A stretch of DNA of 41,513 nt from a bacterium (GTDB taxonomy: Bacteria; JAUVQV01; DATDCY01), in NCBI GenBank assembly GCA_036524115.1, contig DATDCY010000077.1, forward strand, positions 1-41,513. The letters run 5' to 3'. Position numbers and translations under genes: made by a program. Shown one piece after another: positions 6,401-19,175 of this stretch (the first letter of the stretch is position 1; the number at the start of each line of letters is the position of its first letter). The notes under the pieces are model-generated. The model was not told the DNA's origin. It saw only the letters and a list, made by a program, of their open reading frames with translations, and made no database searches.

Positions 6401-8428
6401 ATGAAATATACCGGCCCGGCGTTCGAAATCCCATCGGTCTATCGCGAAATGGGGCGACAACCCCATGGCAGCCGGCTGTCCCGGAGCGACATATTTCGTT
6501 CCAGGTTCGCAGGGATAGGCCCGCGTCGGGCGGGACGGCGGCCTTTGGGGGGGGATCGGCTCTTGGCGCGATCACGCGACGAGGCGGCGGGGTCGGGCGG
6601 ACGCCCGGCGGACCTGACGGCCATCGACTTCTCTTCGCCCGCGTACAACCGGATCGATGAGCTCCAGGATTGCGCCGGGAACTACCGTTCCTTCGAGACC
6701 CTCGAGGGTATCGTCACCGCGGACATGCGCCATCGATTCGAGCGGGAGCGTCGGGGCCGGCGCGGGTCCGGCGGCGAACCCGCGGGTGCGAGCGCGGTTG
6801 CGGTGGCGGACGCCATCGGGGACCGGGAGCAGGGGCCCGCGCCGCCGGCGCCGGTGACCATCGTCTCGCGCGGTCGGGTCCTCGTGCTCGACACGGACGC
6901 CGTCCGCGCCGGCGCGTTGGCGCGGGTTCTCGGCCGGCATGGGTTGACGTGCACCGAGATCGTGACGGGCGAAGGGCGATCCGTGAAGGTGCGGGGGGGC
7001 TTCGGCGGCTTTTCCGCCGCGAGAGAGCCCGCGGTCGACGCCGGCCGGCCCGTCGTTGAGCCCGGTCCCGTGCCCACGGCCGCCTTCGACTGCGTGCTCG
7101 ACCTGCAGCCGGCGCCCTCGTACGCGGGGCCATTGCTGCCCCCCGGCTACTACGCGCCGGGCGGCGACGCGGGCCGGCTCGCGCAGGCGCTGGCCGAGCT
7201 GCCGGAGATGCGCGGCCGTTTCGAGAAGCCCCAGTTCACGCTGTTCCTCGCGGAGCGCTGCCTTCGGGGCCGCGGCCGGGAAGCGGCCTGCGACCGCTGC
7301 GCCGGGATCTGTCCTTTCGGGGCGATCGCAGCCGCGGACCGCGGCGTCGCCGTCGACCACACCCTGTGCGAGGGCTGCGGCGCCTGTGCGCTCGTCTGTC
7401 CGGCGGACGCCATGCGGATGGTCGTCCCCTCCTCGGCCGGGACCATCGCGCGGTTGCGGGGCGCACTCGAGCGCGCCGCGCGGGACGGCGTCGCTCCGAA
7501 GCTGACGATCTGCGAGGCCGACGCCGCGGGTCCCGCCCCCGGTGCGGCCCTGGCGCCGGACGCCGGGACCGCGCCCGGCGCACCGCGCGTCGTCTTCGCG
7601 CTCGAGCAGATCGGGCTCGTGCGGCTCGAGACGCTGCTGGCCGCCGTCCGCCACGGCGCGCGCTCGGTGGCCGTCGTCTGCCCGGGGACGGCACCGGCGA
7701 TCGCGGCGGCGGTGCGCCGCCAGGTGGAGCTGGCCTCGGCCATCGTCGGCGGGCTGGGCCTGCGGCCGGACACCGTGACCTTCGCGATTGCACCGGAGTG
7801 CCCGCCGGCCGGGCAGGTGGCGGGGACGGCCGCCGCCCCGGAGACCTCGGAGATGTCGGGGGCCGAGGCGCCGGACGCACCGGACGCGCGCGATCCCTGG
7901 CCGCCGCAGGACTCGGCGTCCCTCGTCCGCGCGGCGGCACACGTGCTCCACGAGCGCTCGGGCGCCCGCGATCCCGCCCTGCCGCTGCCCGAGGGGGCGC
8001 CGTTCGGCACGCTCGGGATCGCGGCTGAGCGGTGCACGCTGTGCATGGCCTGCGCGGCGGCCTGTCCCGCCGGCGCCCTGGCGGGGTCCGGCGACGCGCC
8101 GCGGCTCGAGTTCCGCGAAGCGCGATGCCACCAGTGCGGCCTGTGCGCGCAGGTCTGCCCCGAGCAGGCGCTGCACCTGCAGCCGCGGCTGCTCTGCGAT
8201 CCCGAGGGCGCGGCGCGGCCGGTGGTGCTGCACGAGCAGGAGGCGGCCCGGTGCGTCTCCTGCGGCGCGCCGTTCGCTTCCCGGGCGATGGTCGACCGCA
8301 TGACCGCCAGGCTGAAGGGCCACTGGATGTTCGTCGAGGAGCGGCAGCTGCGGCGCCTCCGGCAGTGCGGCACCTGCCGGGCCCGGGACGTCCTTCTCTC
8401 CGAGGACGCAGCGCGATGGGCCCGGTAG
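6401..8428 (+). CDS. Multi-cluster 4Fe-4S protein of the formate dehydrogenase locus
   Basis: A soluble protein of up to 675 residues with two pairs of ferredoxin motifs. CDRCAGICPFGAI and CEGCGACALVCPADAM lie near residues 295-340; CTLCMACAAACPAGAL and CHQCGLCAQVCPEQAL lie near 545-592. Two CxxC pairs at the C-terminus (CVSCGAPF, CGTCRARD) look like a zinc or rubredoxin-type site. Before the first cluster, LLPPGYYAPGG and ALAELPEMRGRFEKP match the large ferredoxin-like protein commonly encoded beside FDH genes in proteobacteria. It probably handles electrons for, or helps build, the enzyme. The start is uncertain: the ATG at 6401 and the one at 6449 both lack a ribosome site, but the frame is clearly coding from about 6610. 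The 3' end overlaps the TorD-like gene by 13 bp. Confidence 0.75.
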   Translation: MKYTGPAFEIPSVYREMGRQPHGSRLSRSDIFRSRFAGIGPRRAGRRPLGGDRLLARSRDEAAGSGGRPADLTAIDFSSPAYNRIDELQDCAGNYRSFETLEGIVTADMRHRFERERRGRRGSGGEPAGASAVAVADAIGDREQGPAPPAPVTIVSRGRVLVLDTDAVRAGALARVLGRHGLTCTEIVTGEGRSVKVRGGFGGFSAAREPAVDAGRPVVEPGPVPTAAFDCVLDLQPAPSYAGPLLPPGYYAPGGDAGRLAQALAELPEMRGRFEKPQFTLFLAERCLRGRGREAACDRCAGICPFGAIAAADRGVAVDHTLCEGCGACALVCPADAMRMVVPSSAGTIARLRGALERAARDGVAPKLTICEADAAGPAPGAALAPDAGTAPGAPRVVFALEQIGLVRLETLLAAVRHGARSVAVVCPGTAPAIAAAVRRQVELASAIVGGLGLRPDTVTFAIAPECPPAGQVAGTAAAPETSEMSGAEAPDAPDARDPWPPQDSASLVRAAAHVLHERSGARDPALPLPEGAPFGTLGIAAERCTLCMACAAACPAGALAGSGDAPRLEFREARCHQCGLCAQVCPEQALHLQPRLLCDPEGAARPVVLHEQEAARCVSCGAPFASRAMVDRMTARLKGHWMFVEERQLRRLRQCGTCRARDVLLSEDAARWAR

Positions 8429-9063
8429 CGACCGGCCGCACGATCCCGGGCTGGTGCCCGACCTTCGGGGACCTGCGCTCGGACGCCTACGTGCTCCTCG
8501 CCGCGCTCCTCGGGCCGCCGCCCACGGAGGGGCTCCTGCACATCGTGCGGAACCTCGCGTGGGACGGCCCGCTCCCCGGAACACTCGAGCGTTCGCTGGC
8601 GGGCCTGCGGCGCGCCGGCGCCGAGCATCCCCTCCCCGTGGTCGAGGACGAGCACCGCGTGCTCTTCGTCGGCCTCGGGAGCGGCGAGGTGGTCCCCTAC
8701 GCCTCCTGGTACCGGGAGCGGACGCTCCAGTCCCTCCCACTCGCGGCGCTGCGCTCCGACCTCCTGCGGCTCGGCCTCGTGCGGCAGGCCGGCTGTCCCG
8801 AGCCGGAGGACCACGCCGGCGCCCTCTGCGAGATCATGGCGCTGCTCTCCGGGCCCTCGTCCGAGGTCCCGCTTGCGCACCAGGCTCAGGTGTTCGGGGA
8901 CCACCTCGCCCCCTGGATGGGTGCGTTCTTCGGCGACCTCCATGGCGCCCGCGGTGCCAGCTTCTACCGCGCCGTGGGCGACTTCGGGGCCCGCTTTCTC
9001 GAGGCCGAGAGCCGCTATTTCGCCTTCGCACCTGAATGGGAGCCCTTCACGGAAGGAGCATAG
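8416..9063 (+). CDS. TorD-family molybdoenzyme maturation chaperone
   Basis: A 215-residue, mostly helical cytosolic protein with the TorD/DmsD-type pattern. This includes the central VVEDEHRVLFVGLGSGEVVPYASWY, then QVFGDHLAPWMGAFFGDL and a C-terminal YRAVGDFGARFLEAE. Such proteins bind the Tat signal of a molybdenum or tungsten oxidoreductase and hold it for cofactor insertion before export. The client is presumably the formate dehydrogenase two genes downstream, which carries a twin-arginine motif. The ATG overlaps the end of the Fe-S protein gene, and a GGAG for the next gene lies in its last codons. Confidence 0.85.
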   Translation: MGPVATGRTIPGWCPTFGDLRSDAYVLLAALLGPPPTEGLLHIVRNLAWDGPLPGTLERSLAGLRRAGAEHPLPVVEDEHRVLFVGLGSGEVVPYASWYRERTLQSLPLAALRSDLLRLGLVRQAGCPEPEDHAGALCEIMALLSGPSSEVPLAHQAQVFGDHLAPWMGAFFGDLHGARGASFYRAVGDFGARFLEAESRYFAFAPEWEPFTEGA

Positions 9064-9067
9064 CGCC

Positions 9068-9265
9068 ATGGTCAGACCGTTCTCCGCCAGCCGTCGTTCG
9101 TTCTTCAGGAGCGCCGCGGCGCTCGGGGGGGCCGCGGCCGCGCTCGCCCTCGGAGGCGACAGGAAGACCGCGAAAAGCGCGCCTGCGCCGCCACGCAGCG
9201 GCGGCACCAGCGGCTACCGCCTCACGGAGCACATCGCGAAGTACTACGAGAAGGCGCGAGGCTGA
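9068..9265 (+). CDS. Formate dehydrogenase region Tat-target small protein
   Basis: A 65-residue protein with a twin-arginine signal (ASRRSFFRSAAALGGAAAALAL) followed by a short tail ending GYRLTEHIAKYYEKARG. Tat motif plus a YRxTEHxxxYYxxAR ending is the hallmark of the small protein family found only beside FDH genes (formate dehydrogenase region TAT target). Its role is not established; it may accompany the enzyme through the Tat system. Good ribosome site (AAGGAG) 10 nt upstream. It sits between the chaperone and catalytic subunit genes. Confidence 0.88.
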   Translation: MVRPFSASRRSFFRSAAALGGAAAALALGGDRKTAKSAPAPPRSGGTSGYRLTEHIAKYYEKARG

Positions 9266-9296
9266 GCCCCGCAGCCGACGACAGAGGGAAACGGAG

Positions 9297-12185
9297 ATGA
9301 GGCAGATCGGCAGGAAGTGGCTGCGGCGCACGGCAACGGAGGCACCTTGCCCCGCCGGGATGGACCGGCGGACCTTTCTCGAACGCGGCGCGGTGGCGCT
9401 GGGCGGCGGCGCTCTCCTGGGCCTGCTGCCGCTGTCGGTGGTGCGCAAGGCCACGGCGCAGGAGAAGACGAACTTCCCGCACCCGGGGACAAAGAGCGAG
9501 ACACGGCGCTCGATCTGCACGAACTGCTCCGTGGGGTGCGGCATCATCGCCGAGATCCAGAACGGCGTCTGGGTCGGGCAGGAGCCGGACTTCGACTCGC
9601 CGATCAACCTCGGGGCGAACTGCCCGAAGGGCGCCGCGGAGCGCAACATCGTCTTCGGTCACAAGCGCACGAAATACCCGATGAAGCTCGAGAACGGCAC
9701 CTGGAAGCGCCTCTCCTGGGACCAGGCGATCAACGAGATCGGCGACAGGCTCCTGAAGATCCGCGAGGAGTCGGGGCCGGACGCCCTGTTCTTCTGCGGC
9801 TCGTCCAAGGCCAGCAACGAGGGCGCGCACCTGCAGGCCAAGTTCGCGGCCCTCTGGGGCACGAACAACGCCGACAACCAGGCCCGCATCTGCCACTCCA
9901 CGACCGTCAACGGGGTGGCGAGCACCTGGGGCTACGGCGCGATGACCAACTCCTACAACGACATGCACAACTCCAAGGCAATGCTGTTCATCGGCTCGAA
10001 CGCGGCCGAGGCGCACCCCGTGGCGATGCAGCACATCCTGCGGGGCAAGGAGAACGGCGCCAAGATGATCGTGGTCGACCCGCGCCACACGCGCACGGCC
10101 GCGCACGCCGACATCTACGCCCGGATCCGCTCGGGCACCGACATCCCCTTCATCTACGGGCTGCTCTGGCACATTTTCAAGAACGGCTGGGAGGACAAGG
10201 AGTACATCGCCCGCCGCGTCTGGGCGATGGACGACGTGCGCAAGGAGGCCGAGCACTGGCCTCCCGAGGTCGTCGCGGACGTGACGGGCGTCCCCAAGGA
10301 GAAGGTCTACGAGATCGCCAGGACCATGGCGGAAAACCGCCCCGGGACGGTCGTCTGGTGCATGGGGATCACGCAGCACCACGTCGGCAACAACAACACG
10401 CGCCTCTGCTGCATCCTGCAGCTGGCGCTCGGAAACGTTGGCGTGGCCGGCGGCGGGACGAACATCTTCCGCGGCCACGACAATGTGCAGGGCGCGACCG
10501 ACATCGGACCGAACGCCCACACCCTCCCCGCCTACTACGGCCTTGCCGAAGGCGCCTGGAAGCACTGGTGCCGCGTCTGGGATCTGGACTACGAGTGGCT
10601 CAAGACCCGCTTCGACATGACCCAGAAATACGATGCCGGCGGCGGGAACATGGCCTTCACGATGAACATGCCCGGCATCCCCGTCTCGCGCTGGATCGAC
10701 GCCGTGCTCGAGGACAAGGCCAACCTCTCGCAGCGCACGAACGTGCGCGCCGTCATCTTCCAGGGGCACGCCTGCAACAGCCAGACGCGCGGCCCGGAGA
10801 TGAAGAAGGCGCTCGAGAAGCTCGACCTGCTCGTCATCTCCGACCCCTACCCGACGCACATGGCGGTGTTGAGCGACCGCAGGAACGACACCTATCTGCT
10901 GCCGAGCTGCACGCAGCTGGAGACCTCCGGCTCCTGCACCGCCTCGAACCGCTCGCTCCAGTGGCGCGAGAAGCTCGTCGACCCGTACTTCGAGTCGCTG
11001 CCGGACCACGTCATCCTCTACCGGTTGGCGACGAAGCTCGGCTTTGGCAAGGAACTGGTCAAGCGCATCCAGGTCGTCAACGGCGAGCCGCTCACCGAGG
11101 ACATCCTGCGCGAGATCAACCGCGGCTCGTGGACGATCGGCTACACCGGCCAGAGCCCCGAGCGGCTCAAGCTCCACGCCCAGCACCGGCGCGCCTTCGA
11201 CACGACCACGCTGCGGGCGCGCGGCGGGCCCTGCGACGGCGACTACTACGGCCTGCCCTGGCCGTGCTGGGGGACCCCCGCGATGAAGCACCCGGGGACC
11301 CCGCTGCTCTACGATCCGAGCAAGTCCGTCGCCGAAGGCGGGCTGGTCTTCCGCGCCAACTTCGGCACGGAGCGCAACGGGCAGAGCCTGCTGGCGGACA
11401 AGGTCTTCTCGAAGGATTCGGAGATCAAGGACGGGTACCCCGAGTTCACGGCGGACCTGCTCAAGCAGCTCGGCTGGTGGGGCGACCTGACGGCGGAGGA
11501 GCAGAAAGAGGCCGAGGGCAGGAACTGGAAGACCGACCTCTCCGGCGGCATCCAGCGCGTCGCGATCAAGCACGGCTGCGCGCCGTTTGGAAACGCGCGG
11601 GCCCGCTGCCAGGTCTGGGAGTACCCCGACCCGATCCCGATCCACCGCGAGCCGCTCTACACGCCGCGCTTCGATCTGGTGAAGAAGTACCCGACCTATG
11701 CCGACCGCAAGGCCTTCATGCGGCTCCCCACCCGCTACCAGTCGATCCAGTCCGTGGACCACAGCGCGAAGTATCCCCTCGTGTTCACCAGCGGGCGCCT
11801 CGTCGAGTACCAGGGCGGTGGCGAGAAGTCGCGCTCCAACGCCTGGCTCGCGAAGCTGCGGCCCGAGATGTTCGCCGAGGTCAACCCGAAGGACGCCAAC
11901 AACGCCGGCATCACCAACGGGATGTACATGTGGCTCGAGGGCGCGGAGGGCGGACGCATCAAGGTCCGCGCGCTCGTCACCGAGCGTGTCGGCCCCGGGA
12001 CCGTGTGGACGCCCTTCCACTTCGGCGGCTGGTTCGAGGGCAAGGACCTGCACGACAAGTACCCGGAGGGGACCGCTCCCTTCGTCAGGGGCGAGGCCTG
12101 CAACACCGCCACGACGTACGGCTACGACTCGGTGACGATGATGCAGGAAACGAAGGCCACGCTCTGCCGGATCACCCCGGCGTAG
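9297..12185 (+). CDS. fdhA: Formate dehydrogenase catalytic subunit (Mo/W-bisMGD, Cys type)
   Basis: A 962-residue molybdopterin oxidoreductase. A Tat motif (MDRRTFLERGAV, residues 22-33) indicates export to the periplasm. The [4Fe-4S] site is C74, C77, C81 and C109. The active-site segment ARICHSTTV places Cys199-His200 where selenocysteine occurs in other FDHs, so this is the Cys form and needs no Sec insertion. Further bisMGD-binding blocks include GSNAAEAHPVA, VVDPRHTRTAAHAD, GNVGVAGGGTNIFRGHDNVQGATD and the C-terminal domain with VFTSGRLVEYQGGGEKSR. It oxidises formate to CO2 and passes electrons to the Fe-S subunit encoded 15 bp downstream. The ATG at 9297 has GAGGG and GGAG upstream; longer in-frame extension would overlap the small Tat protein. 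Confidence 0.96.
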   Translation: MRQIGRKWLRRTATEAPCPAGMDRRTFLERGAVALGGGALLGLLPLSVVRKATAQEKTNFPHPGTKSETRRSICTNCSVGCGIIAEIQNGVWVGQEPDFDSPINLGANCPKGAAERNIVFGHKRTKYPMKLENGTWKRLSWDQAINEIGDRLLKIREESGPDALFFCGSSKASNEGAHLQAKFAALWGTNNADNQARICHSTTVNGVASTWGYGAMTNSYNDMHNSKAMLFIGSNAAEAHPVAMQHILRGKENGAKMIVVDPRHTRTAAHADIYARIRSGTDIPFIYGLLWHIFKNGWEDKEYIARRVWAMDDVRKEAEHWPPEVVADVTGVPKEKVYEIARTMAENRPGTVVWCMGITQHHVGNNNTRLCCILQLALGNVGVAGGGTNIFRGHDNVQGATDIGPNAHTLPAYYGLAEGAWKHWCRVWDLDYEWLKTRFDMTQKYDAGGGNMAFTMNMPGIPVSRWIDAVLEDKANLSQRTNVRAVIFQGHACNSQTRGPEMKKALEKLDLLVISDPYPTHMAVLSDRRNDTYLLPSCTQLETSGSCTASNRSLQWREKLVDPYFESLPDHVILYRLATKLGFGKELVKRIQVVNGEPLTEDILREINRGSWTIGYTGQSPERLKLHAQHRRAFDTTTLRARGGPCDGDYYGLPWPCWGTPAMKHPGTPLLYDPSKSVAEGGLVFRANFGTERNGQSLLADKVFSKDSEIKDGYPEFTADLLKQLGWWGDLTAEEQKEAEGRNWKTDLSGGIQRVAIKHGCAPFGNARARCQVWEYPDPIPIHREPLYTPRFDLVKKYPTYADRKAFMRLPTRYQSIQSVDHSAKYPLVFTSGRLVEYQGGGEKSRSNAWLAKLRPEMFAEVNPKDANNAGITNGMYMWLEGAEGGRIKVRALVTERVGPGTVWTPFHFGGWFEGKDLHDKYPEGTAPFVRGEACNTATTYGYDSVTMMQETKATLCRITPA

Positions 12186-13035: not shown

Positions 13036-14022
13036 GTGAAGACGCATTCGCGAAGCCTGGCCGGGCGCACCCTGGCGGGCGGACTGCTGCTGCTGGCCCT
13101 CGCGGGCCTGCTCACCGGATGGCCGGCGGGGGCCAAAGAGGATCTCTCCAACCCCCACGCGAACCTCTGGCGCGCCGTGCGGCAGGGGATCGCGGGCTTC
13201 ATGACCGCCCCCGCCGAGGGTCACCGCGTCCTGATCCAGAACAGCGGGGAGAACTGGCGCGAGCTGCGCAACGGCGTGCTCATCCGCCTCTCCCCCTGGG
13301 TCCTCGCGGCGGCGCTGGCGGGCGCGGGCCTCTTCTACGCCGTCGTCGGCAAGGACAAACTCGAGCGGCCCCGCTCCGGCGTGCTGCTCGAGCGCTACAC
13401 GAAGGGCGAGCGCGCGCTGCACTGGTACACGGCGACGCTCTTCGTCGTGATGGCCCTTACCGGGCTGAGCCTGCTGCTCGGCCGCGTTGCGCTGATCCCC
13501 GTGCTCGGCCACCGCGCCGTCGCCGCGTACCTCCTGGGCGCGAAGGCCGTGCACAACTACTGCGGGCCGTTGCTGCTCGTCGGGATTGTGCTGGAGTTCC
13601 TGCGCTGGGTGCGCTTCAACATCCCGACGCGGATGGACGTCGAGTGGCTCAAGACGCTGGGCGGAATGTTCGGCAGGGGCCCGCGGCCGCACGCCGGCAA
13701 GATCAACGGCGGCGAAAAGGGCTGGTTCTGGCTCGTCGCGATCTGCGGCGCCGCGGTCGGCGTGACGGGCGTCCTCCTGGACTTCCCGGTCTGGGGGCAG
13801 ACCAGATTCGTGATGCAGTTTGCGCACGTGGTGCACGTCGCCTTCGCCGTGATCTTCGTGACCGCCTCGTTCGGCCATATCTACATGGGCACCCTCGGCG
13901 CGGAGGGAACCTTCGAGGGGATGTGGCGTGGCACGGTCGACTCGGTCTGGGCGAAGCAGCACCAGGACCTCTGGTACGAGGAGCAGGTGCGCGCGCGGGG
14001 CATCCCCGCGGAAGACCCGTGA
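13036..14022 (+). CDS. Formate dehydrogenase cytochrome b (gamma) subunit
   Basis: A 328-residue membrane protein. An N-terminal hydrophobic segment (residues 10-32) is followed by a periplasmic-type stretch (HANLWRAVRQG...TAPAEGHRVLIQNSGENWRELRNG) and then four to five membrane helices of the FdnI/FdoI diheme cytochrome b family. Likely haem ligands are the His residues in GERALHWYTATLF, AKAVHNYCGPLL, AHVVHVAFAVIF and ASFGHIYMGT. It takes electrons from the Fe-S subunit and reduces menaquinone. The N-terminal periplasmic segment before the core is typical of the long gamma subunits of proteobacterial FDHs. Strong ribosome site (GAGGAGG) before a GTG start. Its TGA overlaps the GTG of the transaldolase gene. 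Confidence 0.92.
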   Translation: MKTHSRSLAGRTLAGGLLLLALAGLLTGWPAGAKEDLSNPHANLWRAVRQGIAGFMTAPAEGHRVLIQNSGENWRELRNGVLIRLSPWVLAAALAGAGLFYAVVGKDKLERPRSGVLLERYTKGERALHWYTATLFVVMALTGLSLLLGRVALIPVLGHRAVAAYLLGAKAVHNYCGPLLLVGIVLEFLRWVRFNIPTRMDVEWLKTLGGMFGRGPRPHAGKINGGEKGWFWLVAICGAAVGVTGVLLDFPVWGQTRFVMQFAHVVHVAFAVIFVTASFGHIYMGTLGAEGTFEGMWRGTVDSVWAKQHQDLWYEEQVRARGIPAEDP

Positions 14023-14867
14023 AGACCCGCATCTTCCTCGACGGGGGCGACCCGGCGGAGACGCGCGATCTGCTCGGCCGCCTCGGCTTCCTTGACGGCC
14101 AGACGACCAACCCGACGCTGATCGCCAGGAACCCTGCGGCGCGCGCACGCCTCGATCGCGGCGAGCGGCTGCCGGAGGCCGAGGTGCTCGCGTTCTACCG
14201 GGGCGTCGTCCACGAGATCTCGGGACTGCTGCCGGCGGGGTCGGTCTCGGTCGAGGTCTACGCCGACCCGGCGACCGGGCCCGAGCGCATGCTCGAGCAG
14301 GCGGCCGAGATGTACCCCTGGATCCCAAACGCGCACATCAAGTTCCCGTCGAATGCGGCGGGCCTCGCGGCCGCCGAGACGGCCGCCGCCGCCGGCATGC
14401 GCGTCAACATGACCCTGTGCTTCAGCCAGGAGCAGGCCGCCGCGACCTACGCCGCGACGCGAGGGGCCGCGCGCGGCCAGGTCTTCGTCTCGCCGTTCGT
14501 CGGCCGCCTCGACGACCGCGGCGAGGACGGCATGGACCTGATCGCCAACATCCTGCGCATGTACCGGGCCGGCGACGGCCATGTGGAGGTGCTCACGGCA
14601 AGCGTGCGGACGCTGGACCATCTGCTCTTCGCGCTCGCCCTCGGCTCGGACATCGTGACGGCCCCGTACAAGATCCTCAGGGAGTGGGCCGACAGGGGAG
14701 TGCCGCAGCCGGGGGCCGACTACCGCTACCCGCGGGGCACGCTCCGGCCGATCCCGTACAAGGAACTGGACCTGGCGCTCCCGTGGCGGCAGTTTGACGT
14801 CGCGCACGACCTGACGGCCCAGGGCATGGAGAAGTTCTCCGCGGACTGGAACGCGCTCATCCGCTGA
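14019..14867 (+). CDS. tal: Transaldolase-family protein
   Basis: A 282-residue class I aldolase of the transaldolase family. Key blocks are GQTTNPTLI near the N-terminus, the Schiff-base segment HIKFPSNAAGL with Lys108, NMTLCFSQEQAAA, VSPFVGRLDD and ASVRTLDHLLFALALGSDIVTAP. Together they fit the bacterial Tal/TalC group, which transfers dihydroxyacetone units in the non-oxidative pentose phosphate pathway or cleaves fructose 6-phosphate. Which substrates apply cannot be read directly. The GTG overlaps the stop of the FDH cytochrome b gene (GTGA), so it appears to be the last gene of that operon, an unexpected partner. A hairpin follows the stop. Confidence 0.88.
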   Translation: MKTRIFLDGGDPAETRDLLGRLGFLDGQTTNPTLIARNPAARARLDRGERLPEAEVLAFYRGVVHEISGLLPAGSVSVEVYADPATGPERMLEQAAEMYPWIPNAHIKFPSNAAGLAAAETAAAAGMRVNMTLCFSQEQAAATYAATRGAARGQVFVSPFVGRLDDRGEDGMDLIANILRMYRAGDGHVEVLTASVRTLDHLLFALALGSDIVTAPYKILREWADRGVPQPGADYRYPRGTLRPIPYKELDLALPWRQFDVAHDLTAQGMEKFSADWNALIR

Positions 14868-16430: not shown

Positions 16431-16458
16431 TTGCCGGCGGGCGGACGGAGCCTATATT
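16431..16458 (+). promoter_or_regulatory. Promoter for the oxidoreductase/peptide/radical SAM genes
   Basis: TTGCCG (16431-16436) and TATATT (16453-16458) are 16 bp apart, placing the start near 16465 and a leader of about 30 nt before the GTG at 16494. A second candidate, TTGACA at 16369-16374 with TGGATT 16 bp later, lies upstream. Confidence 0.45.
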
Positions 16459-16493
16459 GCCACCAGGGTTCGAATCCGCTGCGAAGGAGGATC

Positions 16494-17858
16494 GTGAAGA
16501 CCTACGACGCCGTGGTCATCGGCGCGGGCGACGTCGGCTGCGCGGTTGCGTTCAAGGCCGCCGGCGCCGGTCTTTCGGTTGCGCTGGTCGAGAAGGGCGC
16601 AATCGGGGGGACGTGCCTGAACAACGGCTGCGTCCCCTCGAAGACGCTCATCCACGTGGCGGACCGGGTCCTGGAGATCGCGGAGGCGCCGGCGCTCGGC
16701 ATCCGCGTCGAGCTGGCGGGCGCCGACTTCGAGGGGATCATGGCGCGGATGCGGGAGACGGTCGCGAACGGCCGCAGTGCCCTGCACCGCGCCGTCGAGC
16801 AGACGGCGAACATCGAGCTGATCCCCGGCGCGTGTCGCTTCCTCGCACCGCGCACGCTCGAAGTCGCGGGGACGAGGCTCGCCGGGAAGAAGGTGTTCGT
16901 CGCCTCGGGCTCCCGGCCCGCCATGCCGCCGATCCCCGGGCTCGACGCGACGCCGCACCTCACGAACGAGACGCTGCTCGCGCTCCGGCGCCGGCCGGAG
17001 AGCCTCATCATCCTCGGGGGAGGGTACATCGGGCTGGAGTACGGCCACTTCTTCGCGGCGCTCGGCACGAAGGTCACGATCGTCGAGCGCGGCGAGCGCC
17101 TCCTGCCGTTCGAGGAGCCGGAGGTCTCCGAGCTCCTCCGCGCGCGGCTCGCACAGCGGGTGCAGCTGCACCTCGGCACGACCGTCACCGAGGTCAGGCC
17201 GGCGGCCGGGGGCTGCGCCGTCGTCGTGCGGGGAGCGGGCGACAGCACGGCGGAGCTGGCGGCCGAGCAGGTCCTCGTCGCCGCGGGCCGCCGTTCCAAC
17301 GCGGACGAGCTTCGCGCTCAGGCGGCCGGGTTTGATCTCGACGAGCGCGGCTACTTCCGCGTCGACGACCGCCTGCGGACGAACAAGCCCGGCGTCTGGG
17401 CGCTCGGCGACGCCATCGGCCGGGCGATGTTCACGCACGCCGGCGACCGGGAGGCCGAGGTGGCCTGGCACAACGCGTCGCACCGCCGGCAGATCGCCAT
17501 GGACTTCGCCGCCGTCCCGCACGCGGTCTTCACCTCGCCGCAGATCGCCTCGGTGGGGCTCACCGAGGCGCAGGCCGCGGCCGGGGGGCGCACGCCGCTC
17601 GTGGGCAGGGCCCGCTACATGGACACCGTCCTCGGCAGGGCGATGGGGGAGCGCGACGGCTTCGCGAAGGCGATCGTCGATCGGGAGACCCGGCGCATCC
17701 TCGGCTTCCACGTGATCGGACCGCAGGCGTCGCTGCTGATCGCCGAGGTCGCCACCGCGGTCGCCAACCGCCAGCAGGTCGACACCATCACGGGGAGCAT
17801 GCACGTCTTTCCGGCGCTCTCGGACCTCGTGACCGAGGCGTTCGCGAATCTCGCGTAG
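16494..17858 (+). CDS. Lpd/MerA-like pyridine nucleotide-disulfide oxidoreductase lacking the C-terminal His
   Basis: A 454-residue FAD-dependent oxidoreductase. The FAD site is DAVVIGAGDVG, the redox disulfide is in GGTCLNNGCVPSK (Cys41 and Cys46), the NAD(P) site is LIILGGGYIGLEYG and the second FAD motif is GVWALGDAIG. Overall it resembles dihydrolipoamide dehydrogenase. However, the C-terminal block reads MHVFPALSD, where dihydrolipoamide dehydrogenases have H-x-H-P; the usual catalytic His is Phe439 here. It is therefore probably not a lipoamide dehydrogenase, and no 2-oxoacid dehydrogenase genes are nearby. It may act on another disulfide, metal or quinone. The GTG start has an excellent GGAGGATC site. 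A 34-residue peptide gene begins 47 bp after the stop, so the two may be co-transcribed. Confidence 0.85.
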   Translation: MKTYDAVVIGAGDVGCAVAFKAAGAGLSVALVEKGAIGGTCLNNGCVPSKTLIHVADRVLEIAEAPALGIRVELAGADFEGIMARMRETVANGRSALHRAVEQTANIELIPGACRFLAPRTLEVAGTRLAGKKVFVASGSRPAMPPIPGLDATPHLTNETLLALRRRPESLIILGGGYIGLEYGHFFAALGTKVTIVERGERLLPFEEPEVSELLRARLAQRVQLHLGTTVTEVRPAAGGCAVVVRGAGDSTAELAAEQVLVAAGRRSNADELRAQAAGFDLDERGYFRVDDRLRTNKPGVWALGDAIGRAMFTHAGDREAEVAWHNASHRRQIAMDFAAVPHAVFTSPQIASVGLTEAQAAAGGRTPLVGRARYMDTVLGRAMGERDGFAKAIVDRETRRILGFHVIGPQASLLIAEVATAVANRQQVDTITGSMHVFPALSDLVTEAFANLA

Positions 17859-17889: not shown

Positions 17890-17899
17890 AAGGAGGTGA
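17890..17899 (+). promoter_or_regulatory. Ideal extended ribosome binding site for the 34-residue peptide
   Basis: AAGGAGGTGA is fully complementary to the canonical 3' end of 16S rRNA, and the GGAGG core is 9 nt from the ATG. This is the longest Shine-Dalgarno match I found in the window and implies very efficient translation of a very short gene. Confidence 0.85.
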
Positions 17900-17905
17900 C
17901 AACGG

Positions 17906-18010
17906 ATGAAGAAATCTCTCACCCCCGCGGCGAGGGAACTCGAGGCGGCGCACTGGACGGCCCTGAAGAAGGCCCTGACCGAGAAGACCGTCAAGGTCTG
18001 CCGCAAGTGA
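17906..18010 (+). CDS. 34-residue peptide, candidate radical SAM-modified precursor
   Basis: A short gene encoding a 34-residue peptide that starts MKKSLTPAA, has a central Glu/Ala/Lys-rich amphipathic stretch with a single Trp (EAAHW), and ends TEKTVKVCRK with the only Cys three residues from the C-terminus. It has the best ribosome binding site in the window. It lies directly upstream of a radical SAM/SPASM gene, separated by two hairpins. Abundant tiny peptide plus SPASM enzyme is the usual architecture of ribosomally made, post-translationally modified peptides. A single Cys near the end would suit a thioether link or a carbon-carbon crosslink to the Trp or Lys, but no modification can be read from sequence. 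I do not recognise the peptide family. It has no signal peptide and no obvious protease site. Confidence 0.7.
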   Translation: MKKSLTPAARELEAAHWTALKKALTEKTVKVCRK

Positions 18011-18028
18011 AGCAGCTGAAAGTCGTGA

Positions 18029-18046
18029 CGTCGCCGGTCGGCGACG
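18029..18046 (+). terminator. Hairpin 1 between peptide and radical SAM genes
   Basis: CGTCGCC and GGCGACG form a perfect 7-bp stem around the loop GGTC, followed by CAAAAAT rather than a U tract. With the next hairpin it would reduce read-through or stabilise the peptide mRNA, making more peptide than enzyme. Confidence 0.5.
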
Positions 18047-18066
18047 CAAAAATCCGGGCGCGACCG

Positions 18067-18089
18067 CCCTCGCGTGCGAAGCGCGAGGG
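18067..18089 (+). terminator. Hairpin 2 (attenuator-like) between peptide and radical SAM genes
   Basis: CCCTCGCG and CGCGAGGG form a perfect 8-bp stem around a 7-nt loop (TGCGAAG), 42 bp before the radical SAM ATG. No U tract follows, so partial termination or mRNA stabilisation is more likely than full stop. Confidence 0.5.
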
Positions 18090-18131
18090 GGCCGCGCCCG
18101 GGCACCTTCACCCCCGGGAGGCGGCACCCGC

Positions 18132-19175
18132 ATGGCCCTGACCGATCCGCTCTCGTTCTTCGTGCAGCTCCACCTCACGGCGCGCTGCAATCTGCGCTGC
18201 CGCCATTGCTACCAGTCGCAGGCGGCGGGCGGCGGCGAGCTCGCGACCGCCGAGGTCCTCGACCTGCTCGAGGAGTGCCGCGAGACCCTCGCCGCCTGGG
18301 CTGCCGGCTACGGCCTGTCCTTCCAGCCCGCCGTCAGCCTCACGGGGGGGGAGCCCCTCCTGCGGCCGGACCTCTTCGACATCGCCGCCGCCTTCCGCGA
18401 CGCCGGGTTCGCCGTGTCGGTGCTGACCAACGGGACGCTCGTGGCCCGCGAGGAGGCGCGGCGGTTCGCGGACCTCGGCGTGCGCGCCGTGCAGGTGAGT
18501 CTCGAAGGGCTCGGTGACGTGCACGACGGGATCCGGGGACCGGGGAGCTTCGCGGCCGCGCTGCGCGGCGTCGATGCGCTCGTCGCGGCCGGTCTCCCGG
18601 TCACGGCGAACATGACGCTCTCGCGCCTCAACGTCTCGCAGGTGCTGCCCCTGGCCCGGTTCGTCGCGGCGCGCGGCGTGCCGCGTCTCGGCTTTGCGCG
18701 GATCGTCCCCGCCGGCCGCGGGTGCGAGCTGCGCGAGGCGGCGCTCACCGCCGAAGAGACCGGGACGCTCTACCGCGAGATCGCCGCGACCACCGTTCCC
18801 GGCCTGGAGTTCGTGACGGGCGACCCGGTCGCCTCCTGCCTGCTGTGGCCGCCCGCCGTCGACCCCGCGCTGGCCGTGCCCGCCGGCGGGTGCGCGGCCG
18901 GGCTCGCCGGCATCACCGTGCTCGAGGACGGGACGCTGCTGCCCTGCCGCCGGCTTCCCGTGCCGATTGGCAACATCCGCGCCGACTCGCTCCGCGAGGT
19001 GTGGGCCGCCTCTCCGGTGCTCGCGCGCCTGCGCGACCGGGCCGCCTACCGGGGGCGGTGCGGCGCCTGCCCCCGCTGGGCTGCCTGTCGCGGCTGCCGC
19101 GCGATCGCCTGGGCGGCCTCCCAGGCGGCCGGCGCCGCGGACCTCTGCGCCGACGATCCCCAGTGCTTCCTGTGA
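18132..19175 (+). CDS. Radical SAM/SPASM domain peptide-modifying enzyme (candidate)
   Basis: A 347-residue protein. The radical SAM cluster motif CNLRCRHCY (Cys19, Cys23, Cys26) is followed by SLTGGEPLLRPDLF, a typical SAM-binding GGEP, then VLTNGTLV and VQVSLEGLGDVHDGIRG. The C-terminal SPASM domain has GGCAAGLAGITVLEDGTLLPCRRLP, CGACPRWAACRGC and a final CADDPQC, enough Cys for two extra [4Fe-4S] clusters. This architecture is that of PqqE and the sactipeptide and ranthipeptide maturases. The 34-residue peptide just upstream is the natural candidate substrate. There is no PqqD/RRE-like recognition domain in this protein or in the adjacent genes, so recognition would have to be direct. The ATG at 18132 has GGGAGG 11 nt upstream. 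An anaerobic sulfatase-maturase role is unlikely as no sulfatase is nearby. Confidence 0.88.
   Translation: MALTDPLSFFVQLHLTARCNLRCRHCYQSQAAGGGELATAEVLDLLEECRETLAAWAAGYGLSFQPAVSLTGGEPLLRPDLFDIAAAFRDAGFAVSVLTNGTLVAREEARRFADLGVRAVQVSLEGLGDVHDGIRGPGSFAAALRGVDALVAAGLPVTANMTLSRLNVSQVLPLARFVAARGVPRLGFARIVPAGRGCELREAALTAEETGTLYREIAATTVPGLEFVTGDPVASCLLWPPAVDPALAVPAGGCAAGLAGITVLEDGTLLPCRRLPVPIGNIRADSLREVWAASPVLARLRDRAAYRGRCGACPRWAACRGCRAIAWAASQAAGAADLCADDPQCFL

Follow-up and report, generated by a model that had tools for sequence, protein, structure and literature searches.

The short open reading frame ahead of a radical SAM/SPASM enzyme gene raises the question of what peptide it encodes and whether the enzyme modifies it. 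In the 41,513-nt stretch of bacterial DNA analysed here (the window), a 34-codon ORF at 17906-18010 translates to MKKSLTPAARELEAAHWTALKKALTEKTVKVCRK, with one Trp, one Cys and the end TVKVCRK. A sequence-only reading had proposed a RiPP locus, with the 34-residue peptide as the substrate of the enzyme. The ORF and its composition are as described there; however, the gene does not end at the TGA at 18008, which we predict to be a selenocysteine (Sec) codon. The locus contains the following features.

17890..17899, plus strand: Shine-Dalgarno sequence AAGGAGGTGA, a 10/10 match 6 nt 5′ of the ATG at 17906.
17906..18028, plus strand: predicted selenopeptide precursor gene, 40 residues and a TGA stop, from the family alignment and the coding constraint past the UGAs.
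18008..18010, plus strand: UGA 1, predicted Sec35; TGA at 21/23 loci, TGC (Cys) at 2/23.
18017..18019, plus strand: UGA 2, predicted Sec38; TGA at 22/23 loci, TAA at 1/23.
18026..18028, plus strand: third TGA, taken as the real stop, aligned with or near the TAA, TAG or TGA of relatives.
18029..18046, plus strand: SECIS-like hairpin CGTCGCC-GGTC-GGCGACG, from its fold, compensatory changes and fdhF as a yardstick.
about 18054-18103, plus strand: strong GC-rich intergenic hairpin, from the predicted fold.
18132..19175, plus strand: radical SAM/SPASM maturase, 347 aa, with Pfam PF04055 and PF13186 over cut-off.

The perfect 10-nt ribosome site reported earlier is indeed present, and no other start codon of the window, on either strand, is preceded by a 10/10 match. 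Similar sites lie 5′ of most peptide family members.

Two in-frame UGA codons in a family of short peptides

The closest relative of the window enzyme (54% identity) is encoded at locus L013 in a Desulfobacterales MAG, where a matching 34-codon ORF, MKKLPSKEALAKEAAFWTRMSEAAKDYPGGICHK, lies 5′ of the enzyme gene. Its codons continue CHK-TGA-AAG-GGA-TGA-AAA-TCC-GAT-TAA, with a second in-frame TGA two codons past the first, as in the window (CRK-TGA-AGC-AGC-TGA-AAG-TCG-TGA, the third TGA being the stop). A hairpin follows directly in both, GTCGCC-GGTC-GGCGAC in the window and GTTGCC-GGTC-GGCAAC in L013. The shared TGA pair and GGTC-loop hairpin led us to the hypothesis that these TGAs specify selenocysteine.

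Adding members found by a profile search with the peptide model to the enzyme-linked loci gave a peptide family of 23 loci. The consensus, with U for selenocysteine, is MKKxLxKxxLxKEAxFWxxxKKxLxxxPGKxCxKUKxUKS, with the tail CxKUKxUK[S/T] and a precursor length of 36-42 residues. Glu13, Trp17 and Cys32 (window numbering) and the first Sec/Cys position are invariant, so that the invariance of Trp and Cys, which had been set as a check on the RiPP proposal, holds for the Trp and the first Cys. Read in this way, the window gene encodes MKKSLTPAARELEAAHWTALKKALTEKTVKVCRKUSSUKS, with SS between its two UGAs versus the usual Kx. Peptide-model matches at E values of 5e-4 to 0.01 were taken as chance, and the motif was absent from the four weak matches that we inspected (L107-L110). 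The peptide matched no family in NCBIfam (June 2026) or Pfam, in keeping with the earlier statement that its family was not recognised.

The default annotation makes both UGAs ordinary stops, with a 34-residue product and the hairpin as a terminator or attenuator, and several family members do have TGA as their final stop. However, the true stops of the family genes are mixed (8 TAA, 6 TAG and 9 TGA over the 23 loci), so that ordinary stop usage does not explain the uniformity of TGA at the two UGA sites, and in two members (L063 and L068) the first Sec is exchanged for Cys. The codons past UGA 1 and UGA 2 are under coding constraint: in frame, pS is 0.75 versus a pN of 0.28, and in the other frames of the same stretch the two are near equal (about 0.36 versus 0.33). 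The window genome contains tRNA-Sec, SelB and SelD, and SelD (G000:C336:2323-3240) has an in-frame TGA of its own (RTCGUAAKLSP). We detected SelB in 20 of the 22 peptide carriers; it was not found in the draft genomes G154 and G258, whose completeness is unknown, and G154 has a SelD with an in-frame TGA. Global recoding of UGA was also considered and ruled out, since the enzyme gene ends in TGA and SelB and tRNA-Sec exist. Together with a covarying GGU-loop hairpin at a fixed distance, these observations leave ordinary stops a very improbable reading, and the read-through evidence rules out the 34-residue peptide as the final gene product.

The locus thus has what marks selenoprotein genes, namely in-frame UGA with Cys homologues, a SECIS-like hairpin and the Sec machinery. 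We predict that both UGA codons insert selenocysteine, and we infer that this incorporation takes place biochemically; the gene would therefore make a peptide ending Cys-x-Lys-Sec-x-x-Sec-Lys. The TGA at 18026-18028 was taken as the real stop because it is aligned with the stops of relatives and abuts the stem, which sets the product at 40 residues. The C-terminus is accordingly corrected from ...VCRK to CRKUSSUKS; selenium, the central feature of the peptide, had been missed. At L062 a TAA stands at UGA 2, and the same genome (G339) has a second cassette copy, L068, which is one of the two members with Cys for the first Sec. In genus g115 a TAG comes immediately after UGA 2, so that UGA 2 could be a stop there. 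Judged by their sequences, the precursors are almost certainly an undescribed family of Sec-containing peptides hidden by annotation of UGA as stop; the gene, moreover, is only about 120 nt long, and both properties explain why the family was missed.

Hairpins downstream of the UGA codons

Two hairpins had been described between the peptide and the enzyme. Both are present, but the first is SECIS-like rather than a plain hairpin or terminator. In the window its loop starts 16 nt past UGA 2 and 25 nt past UGA 1, and across loci these distances are 16-21 nt and 25-30 nt. The hairpin was present in every locus examined, with a GGU-type loop in most and loop variants at L051/L052, at L058 and in g115. 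In an alignment of 20 sequences (A3), 94% of the cells in the stem are paired, and in 6 of the 7 pairs both positions have changed. The stem covariation is 0.498 versus 0.222 +/- 0.029 in shuffled controls (0/500), and ≤0.155 when the stem is slid. The hairpin region had no match above chance in Rfam.

The SECIS of E. coli fdhF, whose sequence we confirmed in 5,388 genomes, served as the reference. A short stem capped by a GGU loop is common to both (e.g., GTTGCAGGTCTGCA in L057), and the fdhF loop lies 18 nt past its UGA as compared with 16-21 nt past UGA 2 here. Unlike the fdhF element, the hairpins in this family have no bulged U, are positioned at or past the stop codon and would each serve two UGAs.

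The second, GC-rich hairpin occurs in the window and at the majority of loci whose intergenic space can hold it, and at none of the loci without such space. We infer that it probably lowers expression of the enzyme relative to the peptide. A stem motif resembling GGCAGATA...TATCTGCC is common to L053, L054, L055, L057 and L066, and since it recurs at several Desulfobacterota loci, this hairpin may act as a conserved element in regulation or processing. In one clade (L062, L063 and L068) the stop codon of the peptide and the start codon of the enzyme share nucleotides (ATGA), and the SECIS-like hairpin falls within the opening codons of the enzyme gene (MIAGSAI); a single RNA element thus serves both frames.

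The window locus and most loci with sufficient space combine a SECIS-like hairpin with a strong intergenic one, and in the clade just described the stop and start codons overlap. Both facts could also fit a selenium-sensing leader, in which read-through by SelB sets hairpin folding and thereby enzyme expression and the peptide itself is unimportant. Such a sensor would have no need of the conserved residues that lie well away from the UGAs, in the N-terminal half of the peptide, and the second hairpin is missing where there is no intergenic space. In addition, the Sec-to-Cys exchange in L063 and L068 retains the chalcogen and not the UGA. We therefore regard a sensor as quite unlikely.

Pairing of the peptide with one enzyme clade

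The radical SAM/SPASM gene reported beside the peptide was confirmed by PF04055 and PF13186 matches in the ORF at 18132-19175. The CxxxCxxC motif (Cys19/23/26) is conserved, as is every one of the SPASM cysteines (254, 272, 310, 313, 319, 322 and 345). The AlphaFold model (pLDDT 89, pTM 0.88) has SkfB as its nearest fold, followed by others including PqqE, SuiB and, in fifth place, the sactipeptide thioether maturase 5why; by sequence, the nearest PDB entries are PqqE (best) and SkfB. The enzyme scored well below each NCBIfam equivalog cut-off shown, including those of PapB, SkfB and GeoRSP. Its N-terminus is without an RRE domain, as had been noted.

We searched the L013 enzyme against 395 Desulfobacterota genomes and found matches in 18 genomes at E ≤ 1e-60. 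With TGA read as U, 18 of 19 enzyme loci have the peptide 5′ of the enzyme gene and in the same orientation; the remaining locus, in G264, encodes a distant enzyme. Conversely, the peptide model had strong matches in 18 of the 395 genomes, 17 with the close enzyme and one at a contig edge. Altogether, 17 genomes contain both genes, 1 the enzyme only, 1 the peptide only (the contig-edge locus) and 376 neither (Fisher P ~1e-27). The enzymes with a peptide form one clade that excludes 12 peptide-less relatives (support 0.93, midpoint rooting). No peptide was found 5′ of the distant enzyme relatives (the Acidovorax-type L015-L028, the Chloroflexi L014, G002 and G264), several of which served as outgroup. 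Among 386 domain-wide genomes, strong peptide matches occurred only in the genome of the window and in genus g115, all four species of which carry the peptide between two tandem enzymes. Conservation of the peptide beside the enzyme, proposed earlier as a check, is thus seen both in Desulfobacterota and in g115.

The tandem enzymes of g115 (L088:8216-10438; also L134-L136) are both 38-39% identical to the window enzyme, and their position around the selenopeptide suggests a two-step or paired modification. In G002, a short Cys-rich ORF, MKKYKKRAYEKPILKKENTMNFPIEIINSSGKRIVCRQCSGCHGCR (L010:2773-2913), goes together with a related radical-SAM gene and possibly represents another RiPP precursor family.

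Clustering of the neighbourhoods (ORFs ≥70 aa) found the enzyme to be the sole gene common to the loci, which makes the cassette one of two genes only. No conserved transporter or exporter, protease or tailoring gene appeared in the clustered family neighbourhoods, extending to the family what had been said of transporters and proteases at the window. A link to the dihydrolipoyl dehydrogenase-like gene at 16431-17858 was considered and rejected: it is not conserved, with any related flavoprotein at only 4 of 21 loci, and in L070, L071 and L074 the related flavoprotein is on the opposite strand. Elsewhere in the window, a protein at 13119-14867 joins a transaldolase/fructose-6-phosphate aldolase domain to a ~300-residue N-terminal part that belongs to no known family. 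A multi-[4Fe-4S] ferredoxin-like protein is encoded at 6401-8428, and near it, at 9036-12185, a formate dehydrogenase-like molybdopterin oxidoreductase whose ORF has no internal stop.

The conserved position of the peptide beside the enzyme and its invariant Trp and Cys make a radical-SAM/SPASM-modified peptide a good reading. The RiPP proposal therefore stands in its pairing and its invariant residues; its peptide was truncated at a Sec codon and lacked the selenium. With no RRE, protease or exporter seen, the proposal rests on the pairing. The peptide could instead be a genuine di-selenopeptide that acts unmodified as a free redox or metal-binding peptide, the enzyme having another substrate. 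A CxxUxxU motif alone could bind metal or Fe-S, and dedicated export and proteolysis genes are absent. However, the pairing with a single enzyme clade is near one-to-one, the leader-like region is conserved with Glu and Trp invariant, and the SPASM fold is nearest to peptide maturases, which together render a free peptide unlikely.

Relation to known peptide maturation systems

The most similar system is SbtA/SbtM (TIGR04081/TIGR04082), a thio(seleno)oxazole RiPP that is common in Desulfobacterota, in which a short Sec precursor, usually with two Sec, is likewise encoded beside a SPASM radical-SAM maturase. SbtA was over cut-off in 37 of the 395 Desulfobacterota genomes. In SbtA (e.g., L126-L131) the leader is hydrophobic and about 20-25 residues separate the SGUG motifs, whereas the new family has a charged leader with KEAxFW, a CxKUKxUK core and one hairpin for both UGAs. 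None of 19 peptide family members matched TIGR04081. The enzyme scored 148.6 bits against TIGR04082, versus a cut-off of 350, aligned only to model positions 199-503, and is shorter than SbtM (347 versus 516 aa). Scores, leader and core thus rule out membership in SbtA/SbtM, and several genomes have both selenopeptide families, each at its own locus (e.g., C57 and C72 of G145). As far as sequence comparison can place it, the new cassette is like SbtA/SbtM in the kind of work it does and lies outside that family.

The enzyme shares the radical SAM and SPASM fold with the ranthipeptide and sactipeptide maturases PapB, CteB and SkfB, and SkfB is its best structural match. Unlike these, it has no RRE, its precursor has natural Sec and it scores below the PapB and SkfB cut-offs of NCBIfam. 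As in the cofactor peptides of PQQ and mycofactocin, the peptide is small and has no exporter, and PqqE is the best PDB sequence relative of the enzyme. The difference from those pathways is that neither a protease nor a PqqD-like chaperone nor any further pathway gene is conserved alongside.

These likenesses bear on a narrower version of the RiPP reading that treats the peptide as a scaffold, on whose C-terminus the enzyme would build a small selenium cofactor or metallophore; housekeeping proteases would later excise that product, as for PQQ and mycofactocin. The missing exporter, the high expected translation, the core at the extreme C-terminus and the sequence and structural similarity to PqqE agree with a scaffold, but no partner genes for release or tailoring are conserved. 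We consider it a doubtful though not negligible possibility.

Proposed mechanism

The computed gene family, its Sec decoding signals, the constraint past the UGAs, the covarying hairpin and the one-clade pairing point to a likely overall reading, a two-gene RiPP cassette in which the SPASM radical-SAM enzyme would modify a di-selenocysteine core. The strong ribosome site would drive translation of a 36-42 residue selenopeptide precursor, and SelB would decode two UGAs nine nucleotides apart as Sec by means of one GGU-loop SECIS hairpin. The N-terminal ~30 residues, with the KEAxFW region, would be a recognition leader bound by the enzyme, and the last ~9 residues, CxKUKxUK[S/T], the core. The intergenic hairpin may keep the enzyme below peptide levels.

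PapB binds a SeCys-substituted peptide at an auxiliary cluster and forms a selenoether (PMC10470005), and SbtM acts on Sec peptides with selenooxazole chemistry and a loss of four hydrogens (PMC11002830). In the new cassette, the Sec selenolate probably ligates an auxiliary Fe-S cluster of the SPASM enzyme, which would oxidise the core at a cost of 2 or 4 H per site. The outcome would most likely be a cross-link of the selenoether kind or a ring of the selenooxazole type. The product would most likely be an intracellular redox or metal-binding peptide or cofactor. An intracellular role is favoured because there is no conserved exporter or protease; as to its nature, our preferred guess is a cofactor for redox or metal binding, since the CxxUxxU motif is reminiscent of CxxCxxC sites for metal or Fe-S. 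In this reading the peptide would be the substrate of the enzyme.

In its most specific form, our proposal is a widely scattered new class of di-Sec peptides, with one SECIS at or past the stop and two close Sec residues, whose CxKUKxUK tail a dedicated SPASM enzyme would make into a new intracellular selenium cofactor or metal ligand through a selenoether or selenooxazole; this we put forward tentatively, at somewhat less than an even chance. In the literature and family libraries searched, including Table 1 of a 2026 review of prokaryotic selenoproteins, which names the selenobacteriocin TIGR04081 (PMC13188914), SbtA is the only other Sec RiPP precursor family, and the new one is unrelated to it in sequence. 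The cassette offers a compact substrate/enzyme pair for the selenium chemistry of radical-SAM enzymes; it is also well suited to testing how bacteria decode a pair of UGAs, spaced nine nucleotides apart, from a single hairpin. It occurs in Desulfobacterota, in the lineage of the window and in a separate phylum of a single genus, and has no antibiotic-type genes beside it, which speaks for a cellular function dependent on selenium and not for a bacteriocin.
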